55,114 bases of DNA from Gammaproteobacteria bacterium (GTDB lineage: Bacteria > Pseudomonadota > Gammaproteobacteria > S144-34), in contig JALSJE010000094.1 in assembly GCA_026989495.1 (NCBI GenBank), forward strand, positions 1 through 55,114, read 5' to 3'. The notes under the pieces were generated by a model. It ran no database searches. It was not told the DNA's origin and worked only from the letters and a program-made list of their open reading frames with translations. Each line of letters starts with the position of its first letter. The first letter of the stretch is position 1. Made by a program: the position numbers and the translations under genes. Below are positions 4,418-53,513 of the stretch, piece after piece.

Positions 4418-4570
4418 GGAAGCTCTGAAAAATCCGATTTTTCAGGGCTTCCCCGCGGCCAGGGACGGCCCATGCACATGGAAGTGCATGACGATACGAA
4501 AAAAATCGAAAATGGGCCGCGAAGCACCAAAGCGCTGATCAATCCGCGCAGCGGATTGATCAGAGTTTCC
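4418..4570 (-). repeat. Composite hairpin repeat R1, copy A
   Basis: A 153-bp copy on the minus strand, with related copies at 19780-19946 and 50170-50331. Read on the minus strand it holds: stem 1, CTGATCAATCCG pairing with CGGATTGATCAG (4535-4563); a central stretch; stem 2, ATGCAC/GTGCAT; a GGCCGCGGGG block; and a terminal palindrome at 4420-4450 centred on CTGAAAAATC-G-GATTTTTCAG. Stem 1 here has A-T where copies B and C have G-C, a compensatory change. Unlike in B and C, the terminal palindrome has one mismatch. The right end (CTTCCTGAATAAAT) lies immediately before the histidine-kinase gene. Confidence 0.85.
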
Positions 4571-19779: not shown

Positions 19780-19946
19780 GGAAACTCTGATCGATCCGCT
19801 GCGCGGATCGATCAGCGCGATAGTGCTTCGCGTTCAATTCCGATTTTCCGTCGCATCGTCATGCACTTCCCTGTGCATGGGGGCCGTCCCGCGGCCATCC
19901 CTGGCCGCGGGGAAGGCCTGAAAAATCGCGATTTTTCAGGCCTTCC
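19780..19946 (+). repeat. Composite hairpin repeat R1, copy B
   Basis: A 167-bp plus-strand copy. Order: stem 1 (CTGATCGATCCG with CGGATCGATCAG, 19786-19814); a central stretch; ATGCAC/GTGCAT hairpin (19861-19878); CCCGCGGCCA with TGGCCGCGGG; and a perfect 32-bp palindrome at 19913-19944 with arms AAGGCCTGAAAAATCG and the reverse complement. The outer arm differs from copy C by a paired G-C/C-G swap. TATCAT at 19949-19954 follows, 7 bp before the dehydrogenase ATG. Confidence 0.85.
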
Positions 19947-19961
19947 TCTATCATCCCGCCC

Positions 19962-50169: not shown

Positions 50170-50331
50170 GAAACTCTGATCGATCCGCTGCGCGGATCGA
50201 TCAGCGCGACAGCGCTTCGCGGTCCATTTCGATTTTTCGTCGTATCGTCATGCACTTCCCTGTGCATGGCCGTCCCGCGGCCAAGCTTGCCGCGGGGAAG
50301 GGCTGAAAAATCGCGATTTTTCAGCCCTTCC
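50170..50331 (+). repeat. Composite hairpin repeat R1, copy C
   Basis: A 162-bp plus-strand copy: stem 1 (CTGATCGATCCG with CGGATCGATCAG, 50176-50204), ATGCAC/GTGCAT hairpin, CCCGCGGC with GCCGCGGG, and a perfect 32-bp palindrome at 50298-50329 with arms AAGGGCTGAAAAATCG and the reverse complement. TATTAT follows at 50334-50339, then the aminotransferase gene at 50376. Confidence 0.85.
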
Positions 50332-50375
50332 GCTATTATACGGCGGCTTCCGGCCCCCTTCTCCAAGGAGAAGCC

Positions 50376-51674: not shown

Positions 51675-51704
51675 TTGAGCGGCGAACGTACGTTCGCCTA
51701 TGCT
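51675..51704 (+). promoter_or_regulatory. Promoter and operator of the LexA/UmuD hybrid cassette
   Basis: -35 TTGAGC (51675-51680), -10 TATGCT (51699-51704). The 18-bp spacer is exactly the perfect palindrome GGCGAACGTACGTTCGCC (51681-51698). Its core GAAC-GTAC-GTTC matches the Gram-positive-type LexA box GAACN4GTTC. A bound repressor would block polymerase completely. Confidence 0.85.
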
Positions 51705-51711
51705 GATACCC

Positions 51712-52287
51712 ATGGAGCAGGACCTCGAGCGCATCGGCCGGATCCAGGACTACGCCCGCCGGCACGGGGCCCTGCCCTCCTACGCCGAGCTCGCGCGGCT
51801 GGCCGGCTTCCGCTCCAAGGCCTCGGCCGCCAAGTTTGTGCGGCGTATGGAGGCGGCGGGCTTCCTGCGCCGCGGCCCCGGCGGGCGGCTCGTCCCCGGC
51901 CCCCGTTTCCGCGCGCGCCCCTGGGCGGGGGCGGCGCCGGCGGGCTTTCCCTCGCCCGGCGACGAGCCGCTCGAGGACGCCCTCTCCATCGACGAGTACC
52001 TGGTGCGCCATCCCTCGCGCACCTTCCTCGTGCAGGTGCGCGGCCACTCGATGACGGGTGCGGGCATCCTGGACGGCGACTTCGTGGTGGTCGAGCGCGC
52101 GGCGCGCGCCCGCCCGGGGCAGATCGTGGTCGCGCGCGTGGACGGGGAGTTCACGGTCAAGTATCTCGACCGCGACGCCGAGGGCTGGGTGCTGCGCCCG
52201 GCCAACCCCCGCTACCCGGAGATCCATCCCGAGGGGGAGCTGGCGCTGGTGGGCATCGTGGTCGGCGTGTTCCGGAGGTGCACATGA
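51712..52287 (+). CDS. LexA/UmuD hybrid: winged-helix, self-cleaving S24 repressor
   Basis: 191 residues from the ATG at 51712; an ATG at 51700 lies inside the -10. Residues 1-62 resemble the LexA winged helix (LPSYAELARLAGFRSKASAAKFVRRMEAAGFL). Residues 78-190 are UmuD-like: AGFPSPGDE, RGHSMTGAGILDGD, VDGEFTVKYL. Predicted cleavage Ala77-Gly78, catalytic Ser113 and Lys150. The cleavage-Ser and Ser-Lys spacings (36 and 37) equal those of E. coli UmuD. So it should act both as an SOS-inducible repressor of its own operon and, once cleaved, as polymerase accessory. Overlaps the Y-polymerase gene by ATGA. Similar in idea to Acinetobacter UmuDAb. Confidence 0.88.
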   Translation: MEQDLERIGRIQDYARRHGALPSYAELARLAGFRSKASAAKFVRRMEAAGFLRRGPGGRLVPGPRFRARPWAGAAPAGFPSPGDEPLEDALSIDEYLVRHPSRTFLVQVRGHSMTGAGILDGDFVVVERAARARPGQIVVARVDGEFTVKYLDRDAEGWVLRPANPRYPEIHPEGELALVGIVVGVFRRCT

Positions 52288-53513
52288 TCCCCACGGACTG
52301 GCCCCGCGCGGTGGCGCACGTGGACGCCGACTGCTTCTACGCCGCCTGCGAGCTCGCGCGTCGCCCGGCGCTCGCGGGGCACCCGCTGGCGGTGATGTCG
52401 AGCCAGGACGCCTGCGTGGTGGCCAAGACCTACGAGGCCAGGGCCCGCGGCGTGCGCACCGGCATGCCCGTGTGGGAGGCGCGGCGCCTGGTCCCGGATC
52501 TGGTGCTGCTGCCGGCGGACTTCCGCCACTACGGCCTGGTCTCGGAGCGGCTGTTCCGCATCCTGCGGCGCTTCTCGCCCCAGGTGGAGCGCTACTCCAT
52601 CGACGAGGCCTTCCTCGACCTGGACGGTCTGTGCGGCTACTTCCGCTGCAGCCACGGCGAGTTGGCCGACCGCATCCGCCGGACGGTGCGCGAGGAGGTG
52701 GGAATCACGGTCTCGGTGGGCGTCTCGACGGGCAAGGTGCTCGCCAAGATGGCTTCCGAGTCGTGCAAGCCCGACGGGACGCGGGTGGTGCCGGGGCGCG
52801 CCATCGGGTCCTTCCTCGCCTCCCAGCCGGTGGAGGCGGTGCCCGGCATCGGGCCGCGGCGCGCGGCGCTCGCGCGCAAGTTCGGCATCGCCACGGCGGC
52901 CGCGCTCGCGCGCCTCGATCCGCGCCGCGTGGACCGCCTGCTGGGCAAGGCCGGCGTGGACCTGTGGCGGGAGCTGCGCGGCGGGCAGGCCTTCCCGGTG
53001 ACGGTCGAGCCGCCCGTGCCGAAATCGGTGCAGCGCGGCGCGAGCCTCGGCCGGCGCACGCGCGATGCGCGCCGGGTGCGTGCACAGCTTGCGCACCACG
53101 CCTTCCGCCTCGCCCTGGACCTCACGGCGCGCGGCCTGCGCGCGCGGCGGCTGCGCGTCTTCCTGCGCCTCGGCGACTTCCGCCACGTCGAGGCCGAGGT
53201 GCCGCTGGAAGAAGCGCCCACGGCCGACTACGGGCGCATCGCGCGCGCCGCCCGGCGCGGCCTGGCGCGCCTGTGGCGACCCGGGCTCGTGGCGAGCGGC
53301 TGCGGCGTGGCGGCGCTGGGGGTCGAGCCGGCCGATGCGCCGCAGCGCAGCCTGCTGCCGGACGCGGACGCGGAGACGCTTCCCCTGTGGCGCGCGGTGG
53401 CGGCGATCCGCCGGCGCCACGGGGCCGGCGCGATCGCCCCCGCCTGCACCGTCCGCCCCGCCGGCACGCGTCCCGAGCACCGGTTCCGCTATCCCCTCCT
53501 CCACGCTCGCTGA
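52284..53513 (+). CDS. Y-family DNA polymerase (UmuC/DinB type)
   Basis: 409 residues from the ATG at 52284 with GGAGG upstream; start overlaps the previous stop. Translesion polymerase. Catalytic HVDADCFYAACE (metal Asp14, steric gate Tyr19), YSIDEAFLDLDG, little-finger domain after the helix-hairpin-helix VEAVPGIGPRRAALARKFG. C-terminal QRSLL resembles a beta-clamp-binding pentapeptide. SSQDACVVAKTYEARARGVRTGMP and the UmuD-like partner suggest the UmuC role. Very GC-rich third positions, like its neighbours. Confidence 0.92.
   Translation: MIPTDWPRAVAHVDADCFYAACELARRPALAGHPLAVMSSQDACVVAKTYEARARGVRTGMPVWEARRLVPDLVLLPADFRHYGLVSERLFRILRRFSPQVERYSIDEAFLDLDGLCGYFRCSHGELADRIRRTVREEVGITVSVGVSTGKVLAKMASESCKPDGTRVVPGRAIGSFLASQPVEAVPGIGPRRAALARKFGIATAAALARLDPRRVDRLLGKAGVDLWRELRGGQAFPVTVEPPVPKSVQRGASLGRRTRDARRVRAQLAHHAFRLALDLTARGLRARRLRVFLRLGDFRHVEAEVPLEEAPTADYGRIARAARRGLARLWRPGLVASGCGVAALGVEPADAPQRSLLPDADAETLPLWRAVAAIRRRHGAGAIAPACTVRPAGTRPEHRFRYPLLHAR

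Follow-up and report, generated by a model that had tools for sequence, protein, structure and literature searches.

S24-family proteins that take the place of LexA have already been described (UmuDAb of Acinetobacter, the non-canonical LexA of Bacteroidetes, and FddR of Francisella; PMC11332147, PMC8565304, PMC13148647), and LexA-polY operons are also known (PMC6511836). UmuDAb, from a LexA-less genus, has a DNA-binding domain at the N-terminus of an S24 core of UmuD type (PMC4807011, PMC11332147); it represses itself and error-prone polymerase genes, and in several species forms an operon with umuC. BLASTp does not pick up its helix-turn-helix (HTH); the box is TTGAN4GTWACN4TCAA, and DdrR is required as a corepressor. 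UmuDAb reportedly groups with the UmuD of Moraxellaceae (PMC8565304), and it represses but failed tests of UmuD function (PMC4807011). FddR, a lambdoid CI-type repressor with the box GTG-N11-CAC and a divergent target gene, makes up a self-contained S24 damage-response unit in a genus without canonical LexA, with dinB as its target in some species (PMC13148647). The Bacteroidetes LexA, a replacement SOS repressor where LexA is missing, has a CI-like N-terminal domain and is not of the UmuD lineage (PMC8565304). In the LexA-polY and lexA2-imuA-imuB-dnaE2 cassettes (Geobacter, Pseudomonas, Rhodanobacter plasmids), a LexA-type repressor is co-transcribed with a Y-family protein. In the umuDC operon of DNA polymerase V (Pol V), UmuD has no DNA-binding domain and the operon is repressed by LexA.

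The locus described here lies in the window (the whole stretch of DNA that was analysed, 55,114 nucleotides from a Gammaproteobacteria bacterium) and consists of two intact reading frames that overlap by ATGA, one for a 191-aa hybrid repressor and one for a 409-aa Y-family polymerase. The listed reading frame of the hybrid begins at ATG 51700; because this codon falls within the −10 hexamer and homologues begin at the second ATG, the true start is almost certainly ATG 51712. The features of the cassette are as follows.

51675-51680, forward strand: −35 hexamer TTGAGC, 4/6 consensus positions; TTG-type at the equivalent spot in homologues.
51681-51698, no strand assigned: proposed operator GGCGAACGTACGTTCGCC, a perfect 18-bp palindrome; a palindrome stands at the equivalent position family-wide.
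51699-51704, forward strand: −10 hexamer TATGCT, 4/6 consensus positions, 7 nt upstream of the ATG.
51712-52287, forward strand: hybrid repressor gene (191 aa), LexA-type winged helix plus S24 peptidase core of UmuD lineage.
51817-51858, forward strand: recognition helix, model residues 36-49 by AlphaFold2 (AF2) secondary structure; surrounding sequence FRSKASAAKFVRRM.
51940-51945, forward strand: predicted self-cleavage site Ala77-Gly78 in PAGFPSP (compare CGFPSP of UmuD); A-G is invariant in 19 aligned hybrids.
52048-52050, forward strand: catalytic Ser113, invariant in the aligned hybrids.
52159-52161, forward strand: catalytic Lys150, invariant in the aligned hybrids.
52284-53513, forward strand: Y-family polymerase gene (409 aa), IMS 162.9 bits, IMS_C 62.4 bits.
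53343-53363, forward strand: degenerate beta-clamp-binding motif QRSLLPD, from an alignment of the 15-member clade; relatives have QGxLF-type motifs.
53379-53444, forward strand: RecA-NT-like (DUF4113-type) motif LPLWRAVAAIRRRHGAGAIAPA, aligning with the pattern in relatives; model helix 366-379.
53478-53510, forward strand: conserved C-terminal tail HRFRYPLLHAR, a candidate UmuD'-like partner site; FxYP in 15/15 aligned members.

UmuDAb, which the earlier note had named as the nearest concept, is indeed the nearest studied analogue, but the likeness does not extend to the HTH or the box. The HTH of the window hybrid is recognisable, and hybrids of this type have compact palindromes of 16-18 bp that fill the −35/−10 spacer. 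No match to the UmuDAb box was found in 358 loci, and nothing resembling ddrR was noticed in passing within the cassette. UmuDAb was compared by its published description; in the S24-core tree (see below), window-type hybrids form a clade of their own (support 96/99). With umuDC, the cassette shares the two-gene operon, the UmuD-type spacings and core, a polymerase sister to UmuC, a RecA-NT-like motif, and the C-terminal tail; in the window, however, the small subunit would repress itself. The LexA-polY repressors that were tested group with LexA in the tree, and the polymerases they accompany belong to a different clade from the window's; the S24 protein of the Rhodanobacter plasmid is a long branch without placement. 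In contrast to the imuA-imuB-dnaE2 cassette, whose imuB is catalytically dead, the cassette of the window has no imuA, imuB, or dnaE2, and the active-site residues of its one polymerase gene are intact. FddR and the Bacteroidetes LexA resemble the hybrid as regulators found where LexA is missing, and differ from it in their CI-type or CI-like character and, for FddR, in the box and in the divergent orientation of its target gene.

As had been claimed, the operator fills the spacer between TTGAGC and TATGCT exactly. ATG 51712 stands 7 nt past the −10 hexamer, a geometry shared across relatives (6-7 nt), so that transcription from this promoter should yield an mRNA without a leader. The counterpart of the −35 hexamer is TTGCAT in locus L097 and mostly TTGC.. 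in Zetaproteobacteria, while TATGCT recurs in L097 and L102, and CATACT or CATGCT is found 6-7 nt before the ATG in many Zetaproteobacteria. The window hexamers match 8/12 consensus positions, and a standard promoter scan called no promoter here. A perfect 18-bp palindrome is not rare by itself in the GC-rich window, which holds four; CGAACN4GTTCG is expected 0.04 times per window. With hexamers this weak and four palindromes present, the operator claim needs support from relatives. A survey of genomes for the gene pair and the operator, as the earlier note had proposed, found both recurring over dozens of genomes, with the hybrid head, the palindrome in the hybrid's own promoter, the leaderless geometry, and the Y-family partner.

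The reading of the first protein as a LexA-like winged helix on a UmuD core is borne out by family models, by the AF2 model, and by the S24-core tree. The spacings are those of UmuD: 36 from A77-G78 to S113, and 37 from S113 to K150. UmuD (C24/S60/K97) has 36 and 37, and E. coli LexA (A84/S119/K156) would have 35 and 37 in textbook numbering. The core scores 100.8 bits against the S24 family model, and the N-terminus scores 22.0 bits against Pfam LexA_DNA_bind, below the cut-off of 23.7. The hybrid passes the UmuD model NF007621 (116 bits, cut-off 110), falls just under the LexA equivalog TIGR00498 (108.5 bits, cut-off 110.95), and in profile comparison matches full-length LexA and UmuD structures. 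The AF2 model, built from 19 sequences (pLDDT 84, pTM 0.77), has a LexA-type winged helix, a beta-rich core, and a low-confidence linker near the cleavage site. The elements of the head (helices 2-18, 24-31, and 36-49; strands 52-54 and 60-62) are modelled with a pLDDT of ~85-92 in the helix and wing blocks. The top PDB match of the model in Foldseek is full-length Thermotoga LexA (3k2z, E 5e-15), with UmuD' ranking lower. In a tree of S24 cores with the head removed (77 rows, including 28 LexA rows), hybrids and UmuD are split from LexA with a support of 100/99, and the hybrid clade contains 20 members. By this placement, the S24 core is of the UmuD lineage and carries a LexA-type head; the hybrids may be either sister to UmuD or nested within it, since the S24 trees fit both arrangements. 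Two other UmuD homologues upstream of umuC (L209 and L211) have a basic N-terminal extension (GARPGAGRPR...VMRVPxS) with a ribbon-helix-helix-like start.

The active-site motifs of the polymerase are intact (DxD with D14 and D16; SIDE with D107 and E108). Among NCBIfam models, it scores best as DinB, yet under every cut-off, and reaches 145.6 bits against the UmuC model, where the cut-off is 431. In a 40-row tree, cassette polymerases form a clade (100/98) that is sister to UmuC rather than inside it, and is separate from DinB-like and LexA-linked polymerases. Three C-terminal blocks align with relatives, namely the clamp-like motif, the RecA-NT-like motif (which was compared with ALAAALTQIERQFGKGSVMR of the RecA from the same genome), and the FxYP tail. 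Weak DUF4113 matches in relatives support the middle block; a domain search did not detect DUF4113 in the window polymerase itself. The AF2 model of the polymerase is poor (pTM 0.48). In UmuC, C-terminal regions bind RecA (as modelled) and UmuD' (through the C-tail) (PMC6511836).

The 32 homologues gathered by protein similarity include 21 in which GAACN4GTTC lies no more than 60 bp ahead of the start codon, in every case at −23 to −30; dinucleotide shuffles gave an expectation of 0.06. Beyond the 21 counted, the same motif lies at −63 in the Gastranaerophilales hybrid L106. Of the 27 hybrid loci scored in the Zetaproteobacteria-like family, 23 have a palindromic 16-mer (at least 6/8 pairs symmetric) at −34 to −24, mostly at −28 to −30, and three palindrome types could be distinguished there: GTATCCN4GGATAC, GTGTACGN2CGTACAC with its relatives, and GAACGN2CGTTC. 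Symmetry and position are thus kept as the sequence shifts, which is the pattern that would be expected of a repressor binding at its own promoter. The type of recognition helix agrees with the type of operator in 41/41 loci (SKR/SKQ with GTAC/GTATCC; SKA/SKS/SKN with GAAC). This agreement reflects one switch of each on the tree, so that it counts as one event and not as a statistical test; an independent-contrast test had a single contrast and no power. In two genomes (G024 and G062), a canonical LexA gene has the CTGTN8ACAG box and the hybrid gene does not, and the two regulators appear orthogonal there. One of these genomes (G024) also contains a likely remnant (L194), a hybrid gene with an early in-frame stop, no polymerase downstream, and an intact GAACN4GTTC box. 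Two hybrids of the same clade (L103 and L104) lie directly upstream of DNA methyltransferase/restriction-like genes, with TCGAG-type palindromes upstream. The bare operator 14-mer was rejected as a diagnostic: it was found in 58 viral-contig stretches, none of them next to a hybrid gene or polymerase.

The genome of the window (2.54 Mb, 99.98% complete) encodes one RecA and one Y-family polymerase, that of the cassette. The LexA type of a genome of the same class points to Gammaproteobacteria as the class of the window. No LexA was found in the genus (this genome and two congeners, drafts 99.98, 98, and 88% complete). Independence from a housekeeping LexA, as the earlier note had put it, agrees with the different boxes seen where both regulators occur, but is too weak a wording for a genus in which no LexA was found. 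The S24 proteins of the genome are the hybrid and an HTH-less one; the congeners have only the HTH-less one, a match to which thus occurs in 3/3 genomes. In the window's genome, this short protein (L002, C113:34015-34266) has Arg at the position of the expected catalytic Lys (GGEYIFRQL). Neither congener was found to have a LexA, a hybrid, or a Y-family polymerase, and RecA is present in both. No operator was found at recA of the window's genome. Five other GAACN4GTTC sites in this genome appear to be coding by inspection of reading frames, and the regulon is therefore probably the cassette alone.

Between aspC and tRNA-Asn, the window contains the cassette, a nitroreductase, and an HxlR-type regulator, while in a congener (G002, L314) the stretch from aspC to the same tRNA-Asn is taken up by genes that look PIN/VapBC-like on inspection. 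This interval is a variable slot, and the cassette is either an accessory gain or a remnant that the congeners lost. Its GC and GC3 match those of the neighbours, so that composition shows no sign of recent transfer, and no integrase was seen adjoining it. A dispersed repeat of ~170 bp, which holds a 36-bp perfect palindrome (GGAAGGGCTGAAAAATCGCGATTTTTCAGCCCTTCC) and is MITE- or REP-like, occurs in the window at 50170-50336, 19781-19951, and 4418-4569, and also in L002 and L066.

A phylum-wide search with a polymerase profile revealed 28 further genomes of one family, with scores of 520-786 bits apart from partial matches. Among the sampled genomes, the polymerase clade is otherwise limited to this family and one alphaproteobacterial MAG. 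We infer that the family is Zetaproteobacteria, since it includes Ghiorsea (the hybrids of L359 and L101 match). In four Ghiorsea-type genomes (G057-G060), hybrids are present and no canonical LexA was found. Six polymerase genes of the clade are orphans without an adjacent hybrid, and five of the six (L371, L374, L380, L381, and L383, but not L373) have a GTGTACG-N2-CGTACAC-type box at −28 from the ATG. In the orphan-bearing genomes, the regulator thus probably acts beyond its own operon. Plasmid searches turned up HTH-less UmuD and distant S24 genes, such as that of an S24-imuA-imuB cluster in Rhodanobacter, but nothing closely related to the cassette. The L106 hybrid, from a Gastranaerophilales (Melainabacteria) MAG, is accompanied by a UmuC-like gene; in smaller trees the pair lies near the base of UmuD and UmuC, and is a possible deep intermediate. 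Viral contigs (L221-L243) encode full-length LexA/UmuD hybrids with GAACN4GTTC boxes and no polymerase, mostly preceding a ~416-aa ORF (MKIFNPxHFLRHISMPTLREF...) to which no function was assigned. In them, the same regulator forms a branch that belongs to phages or mobile elements.

Together, these data make it likely that the cassette is an autonomous, autoregulated, RecA-triggered, Pol V-like mutagenesis operon. The hybrid dimer would bind the −35/−10 palindrome and repress its own leaderless operon, a step strongly suggested by the data. Since A77-G78, S113, and K150 are intact, RecA filaments would then trigger self-cleavage at Ala77/Gly78, parting the DNA-binding head from a UmuD'-like body and inducing both genes. 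With moderate support, the freed body, the co-translated UmuC-sister polymerase, and RecA would form a Pol V-like complex; no other UmuD-like protein whose cleavage and catalytic residues are intact was found in the genome. Repression and induction by the hybrid would seem well supported by inference, and the use of the cleaved repressor as a polymerase subunit less surely so. Caution on the latter comes from the analogue UmuDAb, which represses and is cleaved, yet did not replace UmuD (PMC4807011). Horizontal transfer is the most likely origin of the cassette here, with the cassette-bearing lineage of Zetaproteobacteria as donor and a gammaproteobacterial genome without LexA or another Y-family polymerase as recipient.

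The alternatives concern mostly the role of the hybrid. It could be a repressor only, switching the polymerase on and off, with a cleaved body that has no role in polymerase function and a polymerase that acts alone or with RecA. By analogy, this is quite possible, if on balance doubtful: UmuDAb shares an operon with umuC in several species and is cleaved without complementing UmuD (PMC4807011), in many LexA-polY operons LexA is a repressor alone (PMC6511836), and orphan polymerases occur without a neighbouring hybrid. However, the S24 tree puts the hybrid core with UmuD, the polymerase belongs to the sister clade of UmuC and has the conserved tail, and no separate functional UmuD was found in this genome, whereas Acinetobacter has other UmuDs. 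The converse arrangement, a polymerase subunit with a vestigial N-terminal domain and a palindrome used by another regulator, could draw on the LexA_DNA_bind score just short of its cut-off, but we consider it very improbable given the confident winged-helix model, the operator type that follows the helix type, the genus with no LexA found to use the box, and the CTGTN8ACAG boxes that set LexA genes apart from hybrid genes in G024 and G062.

A captured phage or mobile-element repressor that came to lie beside a polymerase, an origin of the kind suggested for FddR of Francisella (PMC13148647), would fit the abundance of polymerase-free hybrids with GAACN4GTTC in viral contigs. It is nevertheless unlikely, because the window groups with polymerase-linked hybrids in a larger S24 tree and in the polymerase phylogeny, most viral hybrids form a clade of their own (the exception, L225, is an unstable long branch), a viral scan with the polymerase gave no relative, and no integrase was seen beside the cassette. 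That the palindrome is due to chance or is unrelated, for example a weak stem-loop, is suggested by the four such palindromes in the window, but is scarcely credible in view of its recurrence at a fixed distance in relatives, far above expectation, and of the symmetry that is retained while the sequence changes. A wider form of the autoregulated mutagenesis operon is also conceivable, and we hold it only tentatively: the pair may be a surviving sister lineage of umuDC that retained the LexA-type head, with one protein that acts as SOS repressor, senses damage, and serves as a subunit of Pol V, and in Zetaproteobacteria the hybrid may govern the SOS response, alone or as one of its main regulators, and control unlinked polymerases as well.

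In the open-access literature searched, we found no description of a clade in which LexA-headed UmuD cores are paired with polymerases sister to UmuC to form the usual cassette of a single bacterial family, with operators that switch type and orphan polymerases as targets, and no paper joining Zetaproteobacteria with LexA and the SOS response. The cassette provides a testable candidate for the control of damage-induced mutagenesis in LexA-less bacteria, Zetaproteobacteria included, and the repressors with their operator types are a natural series for the study of DNA recognition by the LexA fold. The origin of Pol V also becomes testable, as the question whether the ancestor of UmuD was a repressor in control of its own polymerase. 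If the sister-lineage reading is true, classical UmuD would be the form that lost its head and came under the control of LexA.
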